A stretch of 64,000 bases of DNA from an uncultured Lachnospiraceae bacterium (GTDB taxonomy: Bacteria; Bacillota; Clostridia; Lachnospirales; Lachnospiraceae). The stretch covers positions 1 through 64,000 of the forward strand of contig CADBPM010000084.1 of NCBI GenBank assembly GCA_902796595.1, in the 5' to 3' direction. The position numbers and the translations under genes are program-made. Numbering within the stretch: position 1 is the first letter of the stretch; each line of letters starts with the position of its first letter. Below, piece by piece: positions 9,114 through 20,433 of this stretch. Under the pieces are notes generated by a model. That model did no database searches. It had not been told where the DNA came from and was given only the letters and a program-made list of their open reading frames with translations.

Positions 9114-10532
9114 ATGCGTTGTCCATACTGTCGAAGTGAACTAACAGAAAATAATACCTGCCCCGGATGCGGCAGGAATATGATAAAATTTAAAAAGCTT
9201 TACAGAATATCCAACAGGTTTTACAATGAAGCACTCAGTAAAGCAAAGGACAGAGACCTTACGGGAGCTATCATAAAGCTTCGCAACTGTCTTAAGGTTG
9301 ATAAAAGAAATGTAGACGCCAGAAACCTTTTAGGACTTATTTATTATGAGACAGGTGAAAGCATAGAGGCGTTGAGCCAGTGGGTAATAAGTAAGAACTA
9401 CAAGGAAAAGGATAATATTGCTGACAGGTATATTTCTATGATACAGGATGATCCGGTGAGACTCTCCCGTATCAATCAGCTTGTTAAAAAATATAATGCG
9501 GCTCTTGAAACAGCAAAGAACGGTAATCCTGATATAGCTATAATCTCGCTTAAAAAAGTGACGGCAGAGGAGCCTCATTTTTTAAAGGCTTTACAGCTGT
9601 TGGCACTTCTTTATATAAAAAATAAAGATTACACAAGGGCAAGGAAATATCTTAATATGGCTTCAAAGATAGATGTTTCCAACCCTATAACAAATGAGTA
9701 TCTTAAGGAAGTTTCAAAGCACTCCGAAGAGATAACCGAAGCCCAGGTGAAGGCTGTAAAGGTTGAGGACAGGTATGTATCTGGCAGAGAGTCCTTTGCA
9801 CCGAAGTCAACCTATAAGGAATATCACCCGAATTTCATGCCATGGATAACCCTGATTTTGGGTGTAGCAATAGGCATAGCCTTTTTTATGACAGCAATTG
9901 TGCCGGGAGTAAAAGAACAGGCTGTGGAAAACAGCAGAGCTGATATAGTAAAGGTCAATGAAGAGATAGCAAAGGCAAATTCAGACCTTGATGCTGTAAA
10001 AACTGAAAATGATCTGCTTACAAAGCAGGTAAACGACCTCAAAACTCAGCTTGGCAAGCCTACGGGGACAAGCAGTGCATCGGGTTCGGCTGTTTCAAGT
10101 GGAAGTGCAGTTGCAGCATACAATTATCTCTTTAAGGCAGTTTCGTATTATCTTGTTCAGGATAATGAAAATACAGCAAGCACTTTGATCAAGGTTACAA
10201 AAACAGATATCACCAATAAAGATGCTCTTGCTCTTTATAATACTATGGCGGAAGCTGTATTTGCAGACCAGTCTGTTGCACTTTTTAATCAGGGAAGAGA
10301 TACTTACAACAATGGAAAATATGATGATGCGATAAAACTTTTGCGTGATTCACTGAAGATGGACCCTGACAATGTAGATTCGATATATTTCCTCGGACGT
10401 GCATACGACAGAAAGGGTGACAGCAAGAGGGCAGAAGCATTTTATAGAAAGGTGCTTACAGATTACAGCAATTCAAACAGGGCACCTGAGGCAAGATCAA
10501 GACTTAAAGCACTTGGAGTAACATTAGAGTGA
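9114..10532 (+). CDS. Zinc-ribbon and TPR-repeat membrane protein
   Basis: A 472-aa protein starting with a zinc ribbon (CPYC at 3-6 and CPGC at 16-19), then TPR repeats (about 30-195) and one transmembrane helix (about 243-265, [20 protein letters not shown]). Next come a coiled coil (about 270-315), a Ser/Gly linker and C-terminal TPRs (about 330-465) with [17 protein letters not shown] and [12 protein letters not shown]. It looks like an inner-membrane scaffold with TPR domains on both sides. The start is directly next to the stop of the 45-aa ORF, and its stop overlaps the dut start, so translation is probably coupled. Function unknown. Confidence 0.8.
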
Positions 10533-10966
10533 AAAAACAGATAAAGATAAAATATATTTCAAAAGATATAGAAAAGCTAAGATATATTGCAGGCAATTCC
10601 GACTGGATAGACCTTAGGGTTGCATGTGATATATCCATGAAGAAAGGCGAGTTCAGACTGATTCCTTTGGGAATCGCAGTAGAACTGCCCAAGGGTTATG
10701 AGGCACATATAGTGCCAAGAAGTTCTACTTACAAAAATTTTGGATTGATCCAGACAAACCACATGGGAGTCGTGGATGAATCTTATTGCGGAGATAATGA
10801 TGAATGGATGTGGCCTGCGCTTGCATTAAGAGATACAGAACTTCATGTAAATGATAGAGTCTGCCAGTTCCGTATCATGGAACATCAGCCGGAGATTGAA
10901 TTTGAAGAAGTAGATTCATTGGAAAGCCCTGACAGGGGCGGATTTGGAACGAGCGGGAAGAATTAA
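10529..10966 (+). CDS. dut: dUTP diphosphatase (trimeric dUTPase family)
   Basis: dUTPase hydrolyses dUTP to dUMP and pyrophosphate, keeping uracil out of DNA. The 145-aa protein shows the trimeric dUTPase motifs in order: SDWIDLRVA (I), PRSST (II), [10 protein letters not shown] (III, uridine site), RVCQFRI (IV) and the C-terminal P-loop-like arm RGGFGTSGK (V). It starts with GTG, overlapping the TPR stop by 4 nt (GTGA). Its last four codons and stop form half of a 28-bp palindrome shared with the convergent regulator gene. A dCTP deaminase activity is unlikely given the motif set. Confidence 0.88.
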
Positions 10967-10978
10967 TTCTTCCCGCTC
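10951..10978. terminator. 28-bp perfect palindrome over two convergent gene ends
   Basis: GAGCGGGAAGAATT (10951-10964) is followed by its exact complement AATTCTTCCCGCTC (10965-10978). It spans the last codons of dut and of the convergent XRE gene, whose stop codons overlap in TTAA (10963-10966). The T-tract after it is weak on the plus strand (CATTTTC) and absent on the minus strand. It may work as a terminator or as a clash point for convergent transcription. Confidence 0.75.
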
Positions 10979-11325
10979 GCATTTTCAGATTCATTATTCT
11001 GTTTGTAAAGAAGATATTCAGCGTAGTCTTTCATTTCTGTGGCATTTTCAGGCGTAAGCTGCTGATAAAGGTTGAAAAATTCTACAATATCTTTATCGAG
11101 GACTTCTCCACCGACCGGAAGATAAGCATCCGAAACACCAAGCAGATAGTCACATGAAACATCAAAGTATTTTGAGAGAGCGATGAGCTTGTCAAAAGAA
11201 GGTTCGTTTCTCTTGGACTCATAGTTTGATATAGCGGTGGGCTTAAGACCTAATATATCTGCAAGTTCACTTTGTGTAAGCTTATGCTTCTGCCTGAGGT
11301 TTTTTAATCTGACGTTGAAATTCAT
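10963..11325 (-). CDS. XRE family transcriptional regulator
   Basis: A 120-aa DNA-binding protein with an N-terminal Cro/CI-type helix-turn-helix ([20 protein letters not shown], then [21 protein letters not shown]) and the common YLLGVSD end of the domain. A helical C-terminal segment (about 70-115) may dimerise. The ATG at 11325 is chosen because GGAGG (11331-11335) precedes it; an in-frame TTG lies four codons further upstream. Targets are unknown. It is transcribed away from the signalling operon, so autoregulation or control of that operon is possible. The last residues are SGKN, the same as the convergent dut. Confidence 0.88.
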
Positions 11326-11366
11326 TATTACCTCCAAGACAAGATTTTTATTTCATTCTTATTAAC

Positions 11367-11636: not shown

Positions 11637-13130
11637 ATGTCTGATGAAGCGAATGAAATAAGTCTTGACCTACTCGGATCTTTGGTATCTGAAATGATGT
11701 TTCTTTTTGACAGAGAGGGCAGGCTTCTTAGCTGTTCTGATTATGCAAGAACAGAGATGGGATACTTTTCAAGTGAATATCCGGGGAACTTTTCAAGAAT
11801 CTTTCCGGGGGCTAAACTTGATGAAACAGGGAGAAAGCCTGTGCGTACAGATATGTACAGAAAAAATGAAACGTGTTTTCCTGTAGTTCTTAAGATAAAC
11901 AAGGTTAATAATGATGTATATTTTGCGTGTGCAGATGACAGAACAGATGTAAAGGCTCTTTCTATAGAAATAAATAATCTTAAGGAAGAACTAAACACAG
12001 CACAGGCATATAAAAATGAATTTGTTTCCAATATAACACATGAGCTGCGCACTCCGGTCAATGGTATTCTCGGAATGGCAAGAGCCCTTCTTGATTCGGA
12101 TCTTACACCGTATCAGCTTGATTATGTAAATACGATCGAGCGAAGCTGCATCAATATGAGCAAGATCATCAATGATATGCTCGATTTTTCAAAGATGGCA
12201 GCAGGAAAGCTTACTCTGGAGAATAAGCCTTTTGCCTTCAGGGACTTCATAAATAAGACTATGGCTTCAAATGTTACTCTTATAAATGAAAAGGGATTGA
12301 AGCTTATCTTGAATGTATCAGATGATATTCCTAAAGTTCTTGTAGGAGATGAATTAAGACTTACTCAGATTCTTAACAACTTTATGAGTAATGCGATAAA
12401 ATTTACAACCGTCGGACATATAGCTGTAGATGTATCTCTTACAAAAAATGAGGAAAATTACGCTGAACTCTTTTTTATGGTAATGGATACAGGCATAGGC
12501 ATTGCCAAGGAGGATATGAACAAGCTTTTCAAGAGCTTTTCGCAGGTCGATGCATCCATAACAAGAAGGTTTGGCGGCACAGGTCTTGGTCTGTCTATCT
12601 GCAGGCAGCTGGTTGAAATGATGGGCGGCTCGATAAAGGTAGAAAGTGAAGAAGGAAGAGGAAGCTCCTTCTCCTTCTCTGTTATTCTCGGGAAGCCTGA
12701 AAATGAAGAGAAGTCTTTAAATGATATTGAGTTTCCTTCCGGTAATTTCGTTTACGAAGGAAATGGTCAATATACAGAGACTGCAATGGACAACAGCTCT
12801 TATCCGAACAAAAGACACTCTGGACTTGATTTTTTTAAAAGTCTGGAAGATGACTATGAACTCAGCACAGAGGGAAATCTTAAGCAGATAAAATCCTTTA
12901 TGGATAAGCTTATTATATGTATAGAACTTGGCAACTGGGAAAAAGCGGAAAATTTCTCAAGTGCGGTGAAAAATCTTATTTCTGATGATGAATCAGATAA
13001 GAAGCTAAAGAGAGATGCCTTCAGACTTGAGCTTGTAGTAAGACGTGAAAGCTACGACGAGTCTATTAAACTTTTTAATAATTTAAAAGCAGAACTTGAA
13101 GAAATGTATCCGGAGAGTAGAGATAAATGA
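11637..13130 (+). CDS. Histidine kinase (PAS-like sensor, HisKA, HATPase)
   Basis: A 497-aa cytoplasmic-looking sensor kinase. It has an N-terminal PAS-like domain (about 15-105, MFLFDREGRLLSCSDYA), a short coiled coil, a HisKA domain with phospho-His135 in NITHELRTPVNG, and an intact ATPase domain (N box NNFMSNAIKF, DTGIGI, GGTGLGLSIC). A C-terminal helical region of about 140 aa is of unknown role. No receiver or membrane helix is present. The ATG at 11637 has GCGAGG upstream; an in-frame TTG at 11589 is less likely. Its stop overlaps the next gene (ATGA), so kinase and REC-HD protein are translationally coupled. Confidence 0.87.
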   Translation: MSDEANEISLDLLGSLVSEMMFLFDREGRLLSCSDYARTEMGYFSSEYPGNFSRIFPGAKLDETGRKPVRTDMYRKNETCFPVVLKINKVNNDVYFACADDRTDVKALSIEINNLKEELNTAQAYKNEFVSNITHELRTPVNGILGMARALLDSDLTPYQLDYVNTIERSCINMSKIINDMLDFSKMAAGKLTLENKPFAFRDFINKTMASNVTLINEKGLKLILNVSDDIPKVLVGDELRLTQILNNFMSNAIKFTTVGHIAVDVSLTKNEENYAELFFMVMDTGIGIAKEDMNKLFKSFSQVDASITRRFGGTGLGLSICRQLVEMMGGSIKVESEEGRGSSFSFSVILGKPENEEKSLNDIEFPSGNFVYEGNGQYTETAMDNSSYPNKRHSGLDFFKSLEDDYELSTEGNLKQIKSFMDKLIICIELGNWEKAENFSSAVKNLISDDESDKKLKRDAFRLELVVRRESYDESIKLFNNLKAELEEMYPESRDK

Positions 13131-14182
13131 CAGCAAATATATTGATCGTTGATGATGTAATGACAAATCTTGCTGTGCTTTCGGGAGTTGTAAAAAATTC
13201 CGGTTATGTGGCAAGACCTGTGCAGAGTGCAGGTGAGGCAAGAAAGGCAATAGCGGCTATGATGCCTGATCTTATTCTTCTTGACATCACTATGCCGGAT
13301 ATTGACGGATTCGAATTTTGCCGTATTCTTAAAAATGATCCGAAAACGTCGGGTATACCGATAATATTTGTATCTGCGCTGAATGATCAGGAAACTAAGA
13401 GAAAGTGCTTTGCTTTGGGTGCAGCGGACTTTATCGAAAAGCCTTTTAATACAAGTGAAGTTACAATGCGTATTGATACGCAGATCAAAAATATAACACT
13501 GAAGCGAGAATTGGAAAAATATAACATACGACTTCACAAAATGATGAAGGATCAGTTTCAAAAAATTTCCAACGATCAGCGCTTTTTGATATATGGTCTG
13601 GTGAAGCTTGCAGAAAGCAGAGAAGACCCGACAGGGACACACATGATAAATGTGTCGGTCAATTCCAAGTTTTTGGCGCAGAGCCTCCAGCTTTCGCCGA
13701 AGTATGAAAAAGAGATAAGCAATAATTTTATTGAGGATATCGAATTGGCAGCTCCTTTGCATGATATTGGAAATCTTGCGATAGGAGACAGGATATTACT
13801 GAAAAAAGGAAAGCTTACTCCAGATGAGATGATGGTAATGAAGACTCATACCGAGATAGGTGCGAGAACACTTAAGGAAATTCACGAAAAAAATGAATAT
13901 TCCGAGTATCTTGGCATGGCGACAGATATAGCATATTTCCACCATGAAAAATGGAACGGAACCGGATATCCTAAAAACCTTAAGGGTGAGGAGATACCGA
14001 TTTCAGCAAGGATTTTTTCAATAGTGGATGTTTATGACACTCTTACAAGGGAAAAATGCTACAGAAATGCCTATTCACATGCAGATGCAGTTGATATCAT
14101 AGAAGGTGAAGCAGGTATAAGTTTTGATCCGGATATAGTTGACATATTTTTGAAAATTCAGAATCAGCTGAGGAGAAATTAA
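13127..14182 (+). CDS. Response regulator with HD-GYP-like output domain
   Basis: A 351-aa protein with a receiver domain (1-120; phospho-Asp53 in LLDITMPDIDG, Lys in IEKPFN) joined by a coiled coil to an HD-GYP-type domain (about 150-345). HD-GYP enzymes hydrolyse cyclic di-GMP. Conserved pieces are TGTHMINV, HDIGN (His212-Asp213), the GDRILLKKGKLTPDE helix region, KTHTEIG and HHEKWNGTGYP. The usual HDIGK lysine is Asn216, so activity may be changed. It is probably the target of the upstream kinase. The gene overlaps the kinase gene by 4 nt, with CGGAGAG as ribosome binding site. Confidence 0.87.
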   Translation: MTANILIVDDVMTNLAVLSGVVKNSGYVARPVQSAGEARKAIAAMMPDLILLDITMPDIDGFEFCRILKNDPKTSGIPIIFVSALNDQETKRKCFALGAADFIEKPFNTSEVTMRIDTQIKNITLKRELEKYNIRLHKMMKDQFQKISNDQRFLIYGLVKLAESREDPTGTHMINVSVNSKFLAQSLQLSPKYEKEISNNFIEDIELAAPLHDIGNLAIGDRILLKKGKLTPDEMMVMKTHTEIGARTLKEIHEKNEYSEYLGMATDIAYFHHEKWNGTGYPKNLKGEEIPISARIFSIVDVYDTLTREKCYRNAYSHADAVDIIEGEAGISFDPDIVDIFLKIQNQLRRN

Positions 14183-14183
14183 A

Positions 14184-15596
14184 GTGTCTGTAACGAGTCT
14201 GGAACCTATAATAAGGATTTTTGTTGAATCGACAAAGATCGAAATGTTAAACTTTGACAATTATCTGATGGCTGCAGAAGGCGAAGGCTACTTTACAAGG
14301 GATGTACTTTCCCAGATGGTAAAGATAGTCCGCGAACTCAGGTCCAAATCAGATATGCTTCTTTATGATAATATCGCTCTTGTAAGCGGAGCTCTGGAAA
14401 GATTGCTCGACAGCTACAGAGATCAGCGTGCCGAAACGCCCGACTTTGATCAGATGGATCAGGTTCTTGCGGGGTATTCTGCCTTTGTGCAGATGGAAGC
14501 GGACAAGCTTTCAGGCGGAAGAGCAGTTGATGGAAGCACGGACTCTGTTATGGAGCTTATAAACTCTATGGATACGGGACTGGTCGGGTTTGGAAAGTCT
14601 CCGACAAGGCAGCCGGGGGAAAGAAGAAGGTTCTATATTGCAAGTCAGATAGAGACTTTCACACCTGATGAAGTCGCAGATAAGGAAAGCACTGAGGAAA
14701 CGGGCGAACCTTGCGAAACTTACGAGGAAGAAGCAGAAGAGGGCGTTGAAAAAAAGAATGCTGATGCCAAGACTCCTGAGGAGGTTCTTGTCACTTTAAA
14801 GAACAAGCTTACTTCATATACTATAAGTGACGATGAAATGGAGGAATTAAGGCAGATCGCATTTGACCTTGACGACATCTTATCATGCTTTATTTCAGAA
14901 GAGAATAAGGACAATCAGATCTGCGTGATACTTTCTGAGATAAATCGGTCCCTTGGAAACTGGGTTGAAAGAAACCGCCTCACCGATCTTTCGGGAATCG
15001 TGACAAAAGCAAGGATCGTGGCGCATGAAAATGCGGTCAAACAGGGAAAAGAGGTTAATGTTACACTTGACCTTGATGAAGACGATAGTGAAGAAAAGAG
15101 GATATGCCGGATCGAGAAATATAAGGTAGGACCTCTTTCAAGGGCTGTGACGCATATTGTAAGAAATGCTGTAAGTCATGGTATAGAAACGCCGGAGGAA
15201 AGAAAAGCGGCAGGAAAGGATGCAGTTGGCAATATAAAAGTAGGTATTCACAGCATCAAGGATAATGGAGGAGTGGAGCTTTATTTTGAAGATGACGGCA
15301 GAGGTTTTGATACAAATGCGGTTATCCGTCGCGCTTCGCTTCGAGGGATACTTACAAAACCTATGGATGATTATTCTGAAGAAGAGATCATGCAGCTGCC
15401 TTTTGTTTCAGGATTTAATCAGCGCAATGACAGGACTTCGGGCGCATCAGGTGTAAATGCAGGTGCAGAGGCGTCGGCAAAGCTGATAAGAGAAATTCAT
15501 GGCAAAGTAAAAATTAGGAGTGAGAAGGGTAAAGGTACCAGAGTAACGATAAAATTGCCTTATGATCATATTTCTGATCTGGCGAATTTTCTTTGA
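14184..15596 (+). CDS. CheA-like protein with degenerate HPt and ATPase
   Basis: A 470-aa protein with two recognisable parts. Residues about 25-75 resemble a CheA P1/HPt helix bundle (MLLYDNIALVSGALERLLDS), but the phosphorylated His appears replaced by Arg50. Residues about 230-465 resemble CheA dimerisation and HATPase domains: N box HIVRNAVSHGIETPEERKAAG, G1 DDGRGFD and GKGTRVTIKLP. The usual GVGMD G2 segment is replaced by SGVNAGAEAS. There is no CheW-binding P5 domain. An acidic linker (about 165-200) joins the parts. GTG start, 1 nt after the REC-HD stop, with GAGGAGA upstream. It may be a scaffold or modulator rather than an active kinase (inference). Confidence 0.75.
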   Translation: MSVTSLEPIIRIFVESTKIEMLNFDNYLMAAEGEGYFTRDVLSQMVKIVRELRSKSDMLLYDNIALVSGALERLLDSYRDQRAETPDFDQMDQVLAGYSAFVQMEADKLSGGRAVDGSTDSVMELINSMDTGLVGFGKSPTRQPGERRRFYIASQIETFTPDEVADKESTEETGEPCETYEEEAEEGVEKKNADAKTPEEVLVTLKNKLTSYTISDDEMEELRQIAFDLDDILSCFISEENKDNQICVILSEINRSLGNWVERNRLTDLSGIVTKARIVAHENAVKQGKEVNVTLDLDEDDSEEKRICRIEKYKVGPLSRAVTHIVRNAVSHGIETPEERKAAGKDAVGNIKVGIHSIKDNGGVELYFEDDGRGFDTNAVIRRASLRGILTKPMDDYSEEEIMQLPFVSGFNQRNDRTSGASGVNAGAEASAKLIREIHGKVKIRSEKGKGTRVTIKLPYDHISDLANFL

Positions 15597-15624
15597 TGAC
15601 ACAGTTTAGAGGGGTTCATTTGTT

Positions 15625-16029
15625 ATGAAGATATTGCTTGCTGAGGATGATTTCGCAAGTCGCAAATTTGCACAGAAGTTTCTTTCCAAATATGGTGTTG
15701 TAGATGCCACAACTGATGGCGAGGAAGCTGTGGCAGCATGGGAACTTGCATACGAAGACGGAGAACGCTATGACCTTATATGCCTTGATATCATGATGCC
15801 GAAGATTGATGGGGTGGAGGCCCTTGCAAGGATAAGGGATGCGGAAGCACATGCCAACATCCCTTTTGAAAAACAATCCAAGATAATCATGATAACAGCC
15901 CTGTCTGACATGAAATATGTCGATGGTGCATTTGAACTTGGATGTGACGGTTATGCCACAAAGCCGCTTAATACGGTCAAGTTTGAAGAAGTTTTGGGTA
16001 GAATGGGACTTTTGGACAATGAGCTTTAA
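15625..16029 (+). CDS. CheY-like single-domain response regulator
   Basis: A 134-aa stand-alone receiver. It has the acidic pocket AEDD, phospho-Asp55 in CLDIMMPKIDG, the Thr switch in MITALSD and Lys in ATKPLN. There is no output domain, so it signals by protein binding or passes phosphate on. It ends the kinase/REC-HD/CheA-like operon, starting 28 nt after the CheA-like gene with AGAGGGG (15608-15614). The next gene starts inside its last codons. Confidence 0.9.
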   Translation: MKILLAEDDFASRKFAQKFLSKYGVVDATTDGEEAVAAWELAYEDGERYDLICLDIMMPKIDGVEALARIRDAEAHANIPFEKQSKIIMITALSDMKYVDGAFELGCDGYATKPLNTVKFEEVLGRMGLLDNEL

Positions 16030-17833
16030 AAGAAGGATAAGATACCTTATAACAGGCAATATGCCTATTGCTTTGCCTGTTATTTTTCTTTACAGAATGT
16101 TTTTATTTTCAGTGCTTACACCCTTGTGGTTTTATACTGCAAATGTGGCACTGAGGGCAGCCGGATACAGTTATATTACCTTGAACAATCTTGCGCCCTT
16201 TCTTCTGCATCCGTTTGCATGGATATTTTTGGCATTTTGGCTTGTGGTTTTTGCGTTTTTAGCTCTTTTTGAGCAGGCGTTTTTGATATTTTCGTATTCA
16301 AGAACAGCGCAACATCTGGAGTTCAGATTTTCTGACCTGTTTTCGTGTATTGCAAGACTTGTAAGACATCCTGTCAAAAGAAATGTCTTTGGTATTGCCT
16401 TGTTTTCTTTTTTGTTAGAAGTACTGATAATGGCTCCGTGTTCACCTTTTTTGATAAAGAAGGTAAGGAGCCTTTTTGCTGTGCTTAATTTTGTTTTTTT
16501 AAATAAAGCAGGTACCCTGTTATTTATGATAGGACTGCTCTTGCTTTTTTATGCGGCTTTATGTAGGCTTTTTATTGTTCATTATTACACTCTTGAAAAT
16601 CTGAATACTCATGAATGTGCTGTTAAAAACGCCGGTCTGATAAGAAGAAATGGTAAAAAAACAGTGCTCTTTGCGGTTTTGCTTTTTCTTGTTATCGGTA
16701 TGGCGACATGGTTTTTTTATGCTGCTTTGACATTTGTGGTCGTAAGCTTTATGCATCTTTTTATGAGCGGGGATGTGGTGCTTGCTGCATATATGCAGTT
16801 TTCAGACAGACTGAACTACTTCTTCATACTTATTTCGGACACTCTGTCATTGTATATATTTGAAAGAATAGCGGTGAAGAAATTTTATCTGCTAAAGGAC
16901 AGACTCAACGAGCTTACAAGTCATGAGGAAATGAGGGGGTACAAGATTGAGACCAACAGGCTCATGAGAAATATAAGCATTCTCATGGTTGTTGTTATGA
17001 TCATCGTGACCATAGCCTCTACTTCAAATATCGTCTTAAATGGTGTCAGAGATATCGGTGGTATAAGTATCTGGTGCAATTTTTCTGCCCATAAGGGAAT
17101 GTCTGCCATGGCACCGGAAAATACGATTCCGGCAATGGAAAAGGCTATCAGTGCGACAGCAGATTACAATGAACTTGATGTACATTTGAGTAAGGACGGT
17201 TATCTTGTTGTCATGCATGACTCGTCCTTTAAAAGAACTTGCGGGGTGAAGGGCACCATTGAAAAATCTACTCTGAAAAAGATAGAAAAACTCGATGCAG
17301 GAAGCTTCTTTTCTTCTGAATATTCAGGGACTAAGGTGCCGCTTCTTGACGAAGTTATGGAGTTATGCAAGGGTAAGATAAAGCTAAACATAGATGTCAA
17401 GCCTGTTAATGGAAATGATAGAAAGATCGCAGCAAAGGTAGTCAGTAAAATACATGAATTTGATTATACGAACCAGTGTGTTGTCACATCTCTATCAAAA
17501 AAAGTGCTTGATGAGGTGAAAAGGCTGGACCCTGATATAAAGACCGGATACATTTTAAATATGGCTTCGGGTACATTTTACAAAATGGAAGGTATTGACT
17601 TTTTTAGTCTGAAATATACAACTGTTACTGCAGAAGGCGTGCAGGGGGCACATTCAATGGGACGCGAGATATGGGCGTGGACAGTGAATGACAAGGACGA
17701 CCTTCTTAAAATGCAGAGTCTCGGGGTGGACAATGTTATAACAGATAATGTGGTGTTTGCAAGAAAGGTTTACTCCGAAAAATTTGACAGCCATTCTATA
17801 ATAGGAATAGTAAAGATGGCTTTGACACACTGA
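16019..17833 (+). CDS. Membrane-anchored glycerophosphodiester phosphodiesterase
   Basis: A 604-aa protein. About seven or eight transmembrane helices fill residues 1-350 (the GDPD membrane-domain type), followed by a GDPD catalytic domain (about 360-590) that splits glycerophosphodiesters into glycerol-3-phosphate and an alcohol. Catalytic motifs are AHKGMSAMAPENT (usually AHRG), NELDVHLSKDG, VVMHD and NIDVKP. The frame is open further upstream, but the ATG at 16019 gives a typical cytoplasmic start (MSFKRRIRYLITGN). It overlaps the CheY-like gene by 11 nt, with GGGA about 10 nt before it. Its likely role is phospholipid or teichoic-acid turnover. Confidence 0.85.
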   Translation: MSFKRRIRYLITGNMPIALPVIFLYRMFLFSVLTPLWFYTANVALRAAGYSYITLNNLAPFLLHPFAWIFLAFWLVVFAFLALFEQAFLIFSYSRTAQHLEFRFSDLFSCIARLVRHPVKRNVFGIALFSFLLEVLIMAPCSPFLIKKVRSLFAVLNFVFLNKAGTLLFMIGLLLLFYAALCRLFIVHYYTLENLNTHECAVKNAGLIRRNGKKTVLFAVLLFLVIGMATWFFYAALTFVVVSFMHLFMSGDVVLAAYMQFSDRLNYFFILISDTLSLYIFERIAVKKFYLLKDRLNELTSHEEMRGYKIETNRLMRNISILMVVVMIIVTIASTSNIVLNGVRDIGGISIWCNFSAHKGMSAMAPENTIPAMEKAISATADYNELDVHLSKDGYLVVMHDSSFKRTCGVKGTIEKSTLKKIEKLDAGSFFSSEYSGTKVPLLDEVMELCKGKIKLNIDVKPVNGNDRKIAAKVVSKIHEFDYTNQCVVTSLSKKVLDEVKRLDPDIKTGYILNMASGTFYKMEGIDFFSLKYTTVTAEGVQGAHSMGREIWAWTVNDKDDLLKMQSLGVDNVITDNVVFARKVYSEKFDSHSIIGIVKMALTH

Positions 17834-17850: not shown

Positions 17851-19050
17851 ATGAAATATGATTTTACAACTATGCTTGACAGACATGGAATGGACGCGAT
17901 AGCAACAGACCCTCCGGAAGGGCTTTTTGCAAAGACTGATCCGGAATTTTCAAGAATACCTATGTGGGTTGCGGATATGAATTTTAAAACTTTTCCTGTG
18001 ATCACAGAAGCAATGAGAAAAAGGCTTAATCATCCGGCTTTCGGGTATTTTACCCCGCGTGAGGAATATTTCAACCAGATAATTGAATGGCAGAAGGAAA
18101 GAAATGGTGTAGAGGGGCTTACAAAAGAAGCCATAGGCTATGAAAATGGCGTTCTTGGTGGTCTGATCTCTGCAGTAAATGTTATGTGTTCGCGAGGTGA
18201 TAATATCCTGCTTAATTCACCGACTTATATAGGCTTTACGCACTGCCTTAAGGACAACGGCTATAATATAGTTCTTTCTCCTTTAAAGAAAGACGATAAG
18301 GGCATATACAGGCTCGATATCTGCGACATGGAAAGAAAGATCGTTGAAAACAATATTCATGCCGCAATTTTCTGCTCTCCGCATAATCCATGCGGTAGAG
18401 TATGGGAGAAGGAAGAGCTTGAAGAGGTGACTGAACTTTTTAAAAAATACGATGTTCAGGTTGTCTGCGATGAAATCTGGTCGGACCTTATAATGCCGGG
18501 GTATAAACATATTCCTTTTCAGAGTGTGAGCGAGGATGCGAGACAGAGAACAGTGGCGCTTTACGCCCCTTCAAAAACTTTCAACCTTGCAGGGCTTATA
18601 GGAAGTTATCATATCATTTACAACAAAAAGCTTCGTGAAAGGGTGTTAAAGGAATCAAGCCTTTCTCATTATAATTCCATGAATGTCCTTTCTATGTATG
18701 CTCTTATCGGGGCTTACACCAAAGAGGGCGGAGAATGGCTTGACGAACTTGTAAAGGTACTATATGATAATGCAGAATATGCCGTTGAAATGATAGATAG
18801 GCATTTCAAGGGTGTAAAGGCAACAAGACCAGAAGGAACCTATATGCTTTTCCTTGACTGTACAAACTGGTGCAGGGAACATGCTAAAAGCCTTGACTGG
18901 CTTTTAGCGGAAGGAAACAGAGTAGGTGTTTTATGGCAGGATGGCAGACCATTTCATGGAGAGTGCCATATACGGATGAATCTGGCACTTCCTGCGGCAG
19001 TTGTAAAGGAAGCTTTCCATAGACTTGACAGATATGTTTTTAATGCGTGA
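17851..19050 (+). CDS. PatB/MalY-type pyridoxal-phosphate C-S lyase
   Basis: A 399-aa fold-type I PLP enzyme of the MalY/PatB group, most often cystathionine beta-lyase (cystathionine to homocysteine, pyruvate and ammonia) or an aminotransferase. Markers are IPMWVADMNFKT, NSPTYIGF, CSPHNPCGRVW, CDEIWSDL, the PLP-binding Lys242 in APSKTFNLAGL, and the carboxylate-binding Arg in HIRMNLA. AGAGGGAG precedes the ATG, 17 nt after the glycerophosphodiesterase gene. It probably acts in methionine/cysteine metabolism. A maltose-regulator role as in E. coli MalY cannot be judged. Confidence 0.87.
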   Translation: MKYDFTTMLDRHGMDAIATDPPEGLFAKTDPEFSRIPMWVADMNFKTFPVITEAMRKRLNHPAFGYFTPREEYFNQIIEWQKERNGVEGLTKEAIGYENGVLGGLISAVNVMCSRGDNILLNSPTYIGFTHCLKDNGYNIVLSPLKKDDKGIYRLDICDMERKIVENNIHAAIFCSPHNPCGRVWEKEELEEVTELFKKYDVQVVCDEIWSDLIMPGYKHIPFQSVSEDARQRTVALYAPSKTFNLAGLIGSYHIIYNKKLRERVLKESSLSHYNSMNVLSMYALIGAYTKEGGEWLDELVKVLYDNAEYAVEMIDRHFKGVKATRPEGTYMLFLDCTNWCREHAKSLDWLLAEGNRVGVLWQDGRPFHGECHIRMNLALPAAVVKEAFHRLDRYVFNA

Positions 19051-19065
19051 TAGGTGGTTAAGAAG

Positions 19066-20433
19066 TTGGATAAAAGATTATTTTTAAAAAAGGCTGTTGG
19101 TTTTCTTATTTTAATGCTTGCGTTTTTCTGCTTTTTTTCAGGAGATGCCTATGCCGGTAAGAAATCGAAAAAATCATCAAAAAAGCCTGCATATTATACG
19201 ATAACGCCAAGGACCAAGCCTTGCAGGAAGATGTATTTTAACTCGACATATGGTAAAACAACAAAGAACAGCTATACCATAAGGTCTTATATGGATAAGC
19301 TTGAGAAAAAAGGCGGCGGTACGCTGGTACTGAAAAAGGGAACTTATTATTTAAACAACACTGTCTATATCTCAAGCAATGTAAAACTTGTATTTAATGA
19401 CGGGGTAGTCCTCAAAAAAACCTACAAGAAGTACTATGGCTTCAGCGGGGCTTTTCCGCCGTCGCTTTCTATGTTTATGCTGTGTGCTCCCAAGATAGCC
19501 ACTAAATCCTACGGATATAAGCCGGGAAAATTTCCGAAGGCATACAAAAAATATAACGGTGTACACGATGTAAAGATTTTAGCCAAGGGGAAATGCACCA
19601 TAGACCTTTGCAATGTAAAGGATAATGCCAAGAAGGTCGGAGCCATCGGCTTTGAAATGGGTCATAACAAAAATATAATCATTGACGGCATAACATTTAA
19701 AAATTGCGATAACGGGCATTTTATAGAACTTGATGCAGGTAAAAATGTTACGGTGAAAAACTGCACCTTCAAAGACATGAGAGACCACAAGAATGCCAAG
19801 CGTGAAGCTATAAATATAGATAATCCTGAGAACAGAGGCTTTACAGTTACATGGAGTTCGTATGATAAGACAGGGTGTAGCGACATAAGCATTGAACGCT
19901 GTATCTTTAAGGACGTAAATGCAGGAATCGGTGATCACAATTATGTAAAAGAACATCCTCATAAAAATATATATGTGGGCAACTGTGTGTTCGATGGGTG
20001 TTATGCATACGGGATCCATGCTGAAAACTGGAAGGATTCCGAAATAAACTGCTGTATATTTAAAAATATGCCAAATTCCGAAAATGCATGGATAGGCTAT
20101 CCGATAGCGGGAGATTATATGGATAACCTTATTGTGGATCGCTGCGAATTTAATAATACATACTGTGTTATAAGGATAGACAAAAACTGCAATATGACTC
20201 CTGACTGCCTCTGGTATACTAATATTTACAAAAATGTGGTCACAGATGTTATTGATAATAACGGGGAGATATGGACCTTTGACAAGGCAAAAAATGTATT
20301 TGCGATCGCTGCACCTAAACAGACTCCTCAGACAGAAACAACCGCAGCTACATCATCAGCTGTAAATGTCAATGTACCGCAGAGCGCAATTCCTAAAATA
20401 GCATCAGATTCCGCGATAAATACAGGAATGTAA
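19066..20433 (+). CDS. Secreted right-handed parallel beta-helix protein
   Basis: About 455 aa with an N-terminal signal peptide (KRLFLKKAVGFLILMLAFF, likely cut after DAYA). It then has a Lys-rich segment, a pectate-lyase-like parallel beta-helix (about 90-400) with repeats such as VKLVFNDGVVL, KNIIIDGITFKNC and KNIYVGNCVFDGC, and a Thr/Ala-rich tail. Such folds often cleave or bind polysaccharides; no specific activity can be assigned. TTG at 19066 is chosen because AGGTGG (19052-19057) lies 8 nt before it; GTG at 19054 is an alternative. It follows the PatB gene closely. Confidence 0.75.
   Translation: MDKRLFLKKAVGFLILMLAFFCFFSGDAYAGKKSKKSSKKPAYYTITPRTKPCRKMYFNSTYGKTTKNSYTIRSYMDKLEKKGGGTLVLKKGTYYLNNTVYISSNVKLVFNDGVVLKKTYKKYYGFSGAFPPSLSMFMLCAPKIATKSYGYKPGKFPKAYKKYNGVHDVKILAKGKCTIDLCNVKDNAKKVGAIGFEMGHNKNIIIDGITFKNCDNGHFIELDAGKNVTVKNCTFKDMRDHKNAKREAINIDNPENRGFTVTWSSYDKTGCSDISIERCIFKDVNAGIGDHNYVKEHPHKNIYVGNCVFDGCYAYGIHAENWKDSEINCCIFKNMPNSENAWIGYPIAGDYMDNLIVDRCEFNNTYCVIRIDKNCNMTPDCLWYTNIYKNVVTDVIDNNGEIWTFDKAKNVFAIAAPKQTPQTETTAATSSAVNVNVPQSAIPKIASDSAINTGM

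Follow-up and report, generated by a model that had tools for sequence, protein, structure and literature searches.

The question raised by the locus described here is why a bacterium should keep, beside an intact histidine kinase, a CheA-like protein that has lost both its CheW-binding domain and its phosphorylatable histidine. The locus lies in a 64,000-nucleotide stretch of DNA from an uncultured Lachnospiraceae bacterium of gut or mouth type (contig CADBPM010000084.1, positions 1 to 64,000 of the forward strand; hereafter, the window). Four genes, all on the forward strand, form the operon: a soluble histidine kinase (11637..13130), a response regulator with a receiver and an HD domain of the HD-GYP type (REC-HD, 13127..14182), a short CheA relative that is a putative pseudokinase (mini-CheA, 14184..15596) and a CheY-like single receiver (15625..16029). 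All four ORFs are open and each has a plausible ribosome-binding site; that of mini-CheA begins with GTG, with GAGGAG upstream. The spacing was re-measured and the genes are packed as tightly as a first-pass annotation had claimed, with a 4 nt overlap between kinase and REC-HD followed by gaps of 1 and 28 nt. The Pfam matches are HisKA and HATPase in the kinase, Response_reg and HD in REC-HD, only HATPase_c in mini-CheA and Response_reg in the CheY-like protein. No convincing membrane segment was found in any of the four proteins. Promoter and terminator scans gave scores no better than those of shuffles.

The kinase consists of an N-terminal PAS-type fold, HisKA (H135, within an HELRTP motif), HATPase and a C-terminal TPR-like domain of four helices, predicted by AF2 as two helical hairpins. 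It had been described as intact and without membrane helices or a receiver; the Pfam matches and a hydrophobicity scan, in which no strongly hydrophobic segment appeared (best 19-residue Kyte-Doolittle mean 1.07), agree with this. A degenerate HPt, an idea taken from the sequence pattern, was considered for the C-terminal domain and rejected, as weak, sub-threshold Pfam hits (TPR_2, BTAD, RPN7, RapH_N) and the AF2 model favour a TPR-like fold. In REC-HD, the receiver residues D53 and K105 and the HD-GYP ligands (H172, H212, D213, H241, H272, H273, D301) are intact by Pfam, alignment and motif counts, and GTGYP is present too. Retention of the metal ligands is consistent with the earlier assignment of this protein to the cyclic-di-GMP type. 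The Lys of HDxGK is replaced by Asn216 in the window and by Asn or Ser in its congeners, so that the activity of REC-HD is uncertain. The REC and HD architecture and the HD ligands are shared with the NosR-family REC-HD-GYP phosphodiesterases (NCBIfam NF053512), but the protein scores 134.7 bits, far below the cut-off of 400 bits, and differs from them in the HDxGK Lys. The CheY-like receiver retains D55 and K113.

In the AF2 model of mini-CheA (mean pLDDT 70), P1 is made of five helices and is followed by a disordered stretch (residues 133-193), a hairpin resembling P3, and P4. P1 matches CheA P1 structures, among them 1i5n (Z 17.8) and 3kyj (Z 17.7). P4 superimposes on 1i58 with Z 23.3 and rmsd 1.9 over 174 residues (VIA-align) and matches 4xiv in phmmer at 1.6e-26. 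The helical hairpin predicted for residues 216-265, which has no Pfam H-kinase_dim match, aligns with P3 of 1b3q at an rmsd of 4.9 over P3-P4 (Z 22.2). P2 is absent, as judged from the predicted structure and the structural matches. P5, the CheW-binding domain, is missing as well, in line with the first-pass annotation: neither Pfam nor phmmer gave a CheW match, and the protein stops right after P4. Class III histidine kinases join a sensory domain to an ATPase of the CheA type; this identity was rejected for mini-CheA, whose N-terminus has the P1 fold and in which Pfam finds no sensor domain. In full-length CheAs, P2 is preceded by a [FY]Y[IV] motif. Mini-CheAs retain this motif despite the loss of P2 (residues 151-153 here); situated in the disordered stretch, it is possibly a docking motif.

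The HPt helix pattern and the N and G1 boxes noted earlier in this protein are thus present, the former as a P1 fold by structure prediction and match, the latter as residues (N box H324, N328, H332; G1 D370, G372, G374) that are invariant in an 11-sequence alignment. Alignment with relatives puts Arg50 (codon 14331..14333) in the phospho-His column, as noted earlier, and residues 1-280 contain no His at all. The G2 box had been called rearranged. It is altered, with GVNAG at residues 423-427 (15450..15464) for GRGVG in relatives (S-G-V-N-A-G-A-E versus S-G-R-G-V-G-M-D), but it is not erased, since the first and last Gly are retained and the middle one is gone. With just one of three G2 glycines missing, P4 could still bind ATP; from the motif, a loss of ATP binding is also possible.

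The genus of the window is apparently Catonella; its species include Catonella morbi ATCC 51271 and the rumen MAG RUG055 (L034). Of the five species compared, four carry the mini-CheA gene, and the fifth (G301) has neither REC-HD nor a canonical CheA. The four-gene order, which the first-pass annotation had proposed to seek in other Lachnospiraceae, was found in three congeneric species (with a CheY gene that is either damaged or truncated close to the contig end in RUG055), in a member of another genus (L040; HK, REC-HD, mini-CheA, CheY) and in L076, where the CheA-like gene is split. Its recurrence in the three congeners and in L040 shows that the order is no chance arrangement. Neither finding that the first-pass annotation had named as speaking against it was obtained: the P1 site has no His and G2 is altered, and relatives do have the gene order. 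About a dozen other loci, such as that of Velocimicrobium porci (L142), read HK-REC-HD-mini-CheA without CheY, and four two-gene loci are reduced to HK-REC-HD, mini-CheA being gone (L077, L079, L099, L111). In L076 (7393-8747), and likewise in L145, the mini-CheA gene consists of two overlapping ORFs, reflecting either an assembly error or a frameshift. At L037 (6536-7009) a 157-aa protein, which we take to be CheX-like, is encoded in the place of CheY beside a His-bearing mini-CheA.

Kinase orthologues were identified by the C-terminal domain as marker. The kinase is present in 47 of 299 Lachnospiraceae genomes; outside the family, only three matches to this domain were found among genomes drawn from the order. 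The loci of the kinase-bearing genomes were compared together with 80 further named loci. The commonest setting is a full chemosensory operon, at the head of which the kinase stands in most of the genomes that have it, HK-REC-HD-CheR-CheB-CheY-CheA (about 715 aa, with P5)-CheW-MCP, of which the kinase, REC-HD, CheY and mini-CheA of the window correspond to genes 1, 2, 5 and 6. The earlier suggestion of a reused chemotaxis core is strongly supported by these orthologues of all four genes, found in complete operons of relatives that have a full-length CheA. In an unrooted tree of concatenated HK and REC-HD sequences (41 loci), all 13 reduced loci, whether of four, three or two genes, fall to the same side of a branch with 100/100 support; the kinase-only tree did not resolve the base of this reduced clade, whereas the concatenated one did. 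As the tree is unrooted, the direction from full to reduced is taken from P2 and P5, domains that CheA already possessed before the family came into being. Comparative sequence evidence strongly supports the view that the operon of the window arose by reduction of a second chemosensory operon, of the Lachnospiraceae type. Relative to the latter, it lacks the receptor, CheW, CheR, CheB and, within CheA, P2 and P5; it keeps the kinase, REC-HD, CheY and a mini-CheA made up of P1, a P3-like hairpin and P4.

Some further arrangements were observed among the compared loci. A P5-less CheA is found alongside CheB and CheY in L042, L043 and Kineothrix alysoides (L183:10835-12145, 436 aa), and in a similar operon with CheB and CheY it is split over two ORFs (L177:10827-12158); these look like separate reductions. 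The seeming occurrence of P5 in L040 and L161 arose because the P5 query contained the end of P4. Three Roseburia-like genomes (L180, L182, L200) have a tandem arrangement, HK-REC-HD-CheR-HK-REC-HD.

All 57 full-length CheA rows have the phospho-His of P1 (the loci contain 52 distinct long CheA sequences), as does every mini-CheA from other genera whose sequence spans P1 (17 distinct). None of the four species of the window's genus that carry the operon retains it; R, I, R and R stand in its place. G2 is intact in all but the window and RUG055, both of which read GVNAGAE. P5-less relatives elsewhere thus have an intact phospho-His and G2, and the degeneracy of P1 is specific to this genus. Most simply, the phospho-His would have been lost in the ancestor of the genus. 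The loss of His in all four species and the change of G2 in two imply that P1 died first and that G2 changed later in one sub-lineage.

The mini-CheA ORF nevertheless remains uninterrupted in four species whose sequences are 40-56% identical. Because almost every pair shows saturation at synonymous sites, the comparison was confined to pN and pS; values are pN 0.31 and pS 0.83 for the window and RUG055, and pN 0.12 and pS 0.75 for L035 and L036. With pN far below pS, mini-CheA is under constraint. The divergence of P1 relative to that of REC-HD is 1.6-2.5 within the genus (a small sample of six non-independent pairs), compared with a median of 2.07 in His-bearing relatives. For P4 the ratio is 1.9-2.6 in five of the six pairs, also non-independent, compared with a median of 1.37 in relatives; the exception is the pair L035/L036, which has a canonical G2 and a ratio of 1.27. 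Because P1 evolves no faster than in relatives with the His, we read its surface as probably still needed and in use, and P4 as probably under relaxed constraint in the sub-lineage of the window. The canonical, constrained P4 of L035/L036 is a hint that ATP turnover could remain relevant in that pair.

Retention of the gene despite the loss of P5 and of the His suggests that a kinase has turned into a non-enzymatic partner. The best explanation, for which we put the chances at about even, is that the operon is a reduced chemosensory operon whose kinase drives both REC-HD and CheY, with mini-CheA as a pseudo-HPt or pseudokinase partner. The PAS-containing kinase would autophosphorylate at H135 and serve as phosphodonor to REC-HD and to the lone CheY. 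REC-HD would then break down cyclic-di-GMP or a similar nucleotide and so favour motility. Mini-CheA would neither make nor pass phosphate any more; by analogy with CheA P1-CheY structures, its P1 may still dock the receivers and sequester, position or shield them, and its P4 may yet bind ATP, as a switch. The first-pass annotation had proposed a scaffold or phosphate-flow modulator, a role that mini-CheA might have. The whole system would operate beside the canonical chemotaxis array, not within it. Put forward tentatively is a more specific account, in which CheA became a pseudokinase stepwise within one genus. Its His-less P1 would dock receivers as a pseudo-HPt and thereby gate a kinase/HD-GYP/CheY pathway, the chemotaxis core being put to new use with neither receptors nor CheW nor phosphotransfer; the His-bearing, P5-less mini-CheAs of sister genera would represent the intermediate stage.

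Mini-CheA might instead be functionless after the losses of P5 and then of the phospho-His, its gene being on the way out. The repeated loss of the gene in the reduced clade (L077, L079, L099, L111), the relaxed P4 in the sub-lineage of the window and the disappearance of the whole operon from G301 would fit such a decay, which we consider unlikely given that the ORF has stayed open in four species across 40-56% identity and saturated synonymous sites, that P1 is not relaxed, and that the window and RUG055 have exactly the same altered G2, GVNAGAE. It is likewise doubtful that mini-CheA is an active ATPase or kinase which phosphorylates another Hpt in trans, for instance that of the canonical CheA (its P1) or a stand-alone Hpt protein: the operon holds no Hpt gene, the P4 of the window is relaxed and its G2 altered, and the retention of P1 would be without reason, even though the N and G1 boxes are intact, the L035/L036 pair combines a constrained P4 with a fully canonical G2, and the genome has other Hpt domains. 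A relay continued by phosphorylation of P1 at a residue other than His would make use of the preserved fold and rate of change of that domain; the lack of any His in residues 1-280, and the finding that the His-less Hpt domains of ChpA are not phosphorylated in vitro (PMC10782961), render it highly improbable.

More than half of the REC-HD orthologues in full operons have the HD His replaced, mostly by Cys (HD to CD), with intact receiver residues; reduced systems are therefore likelier than full ones to act through HD-GYP activity. The genome of the window contains 25 GGDEF matches, about 19 MCPs and the further Hpt domains mentioned above. No chemotaxis gene adjoins the operon within the window, as had been stated before, and a canonical flagellar/chemotaxis operon with a CheA of 710 aa sits on another contig; its genes are presumably CheB, CheA, CheW, CheC, CheD and a SigD-like one. 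All 14 genomes with reduced-type loci have a CheA match, compared with 159/299 overall (hypergeometric 1e-4, phylogeny uncorrected). G301, alone among the five species in lacking the operon, also has no canonical CheA, which suggests a non-chemotactic species. The best reading is that the presence of the module follows the presence of chemotaxis and that the system is linked to motility.

Mini-CheA shares with CheA (1b3q, 1i58, 1i5n) the folds of P1 and P4, a predicted hairpin resembling P3 and the N and G1 boxes, and it is directly related to bona fide CheAs of chemosensory operons; it differs in lacking P2, P5 and the phospho-His, in its altered G2, and in having no CheW or receptor adjoining. 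P5 was present in 100% of 13,673 CheAs surveyed, the core being P1, P3, P4 and P5 (PMC10782961); P5-less relatives would escape a survey whose search requires CheW. Pseudomonas aeruginosa ChpA also has Hpt domains without the phosphorylatable His, with a role stated to be undetermined (PMC10782961), but in ChpA-type multi-Hpt CheAs the dead domains are extra copies beside working ones, whereas the sole Hpt of mini-CheA is dead. Rhodobacter sphaeroides CheA3 (PMC10782961), whose P1-CheY6 complex (3kyj) is among the closest structural matches of P1, is another CheA with a non-functional part; there the P1 His is kept and the kinase domain is dead, while in mini-CheA the dead part is P1. Borrelia burgdorferi CheA1 is dispensable for chemotaxis in vitro and has another regulatory role (PMC10703414); it resembles mini-CheA as a CheA relative, for which a role outside chemotaxis is here only proposed, and differs from it in having the full P1-P5. 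Literature searches returned no account of the four-gene operon or of a P5-less CheA, which is weak evidence of absence because most subscription journals lay outside their scope.

CheA and its CheW-coupling P5 are considered inseparable, and the published survey draws the core accordingly. Here, a clade of Lachnospiraceae has kept P5-less CheAs in an operon with a soluble kinase and REC-HD, and one genus has gone further and lost the phosphate carrier itself. The relatives form a graded natural series from the full operon over a P5-less, active-looking mini-CheA, a dead P1 and an altered G2 to gene loss, which allows the role of His-less Hpt domains to be tested by comparing close relatives. 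The proposed system would point to a motility-linked signalling route outside the chemotaxis array in gut and oral Lachnospiraceae.

Downstream of the operon is a gene for a membrane-domain glycerophosphodiesterase (GDPD, 16019-17833). Its probable start codon, ATG at 16019, lies within the end of the CheY gene, so that the two genes would share 11 nt. An aminotransferase-like gene and another gene (17851-20433) come shortly after it in the same orientation. The transcript may therefore exceed four genes. The GDPD gene does not adjoin the operon in L035/L036. Upstream (10529-11337) are genes for a dUTPase and for a divergent XRE-type regulator; as these neighbours also occur in L034-L037, the site looks vertically inherited.
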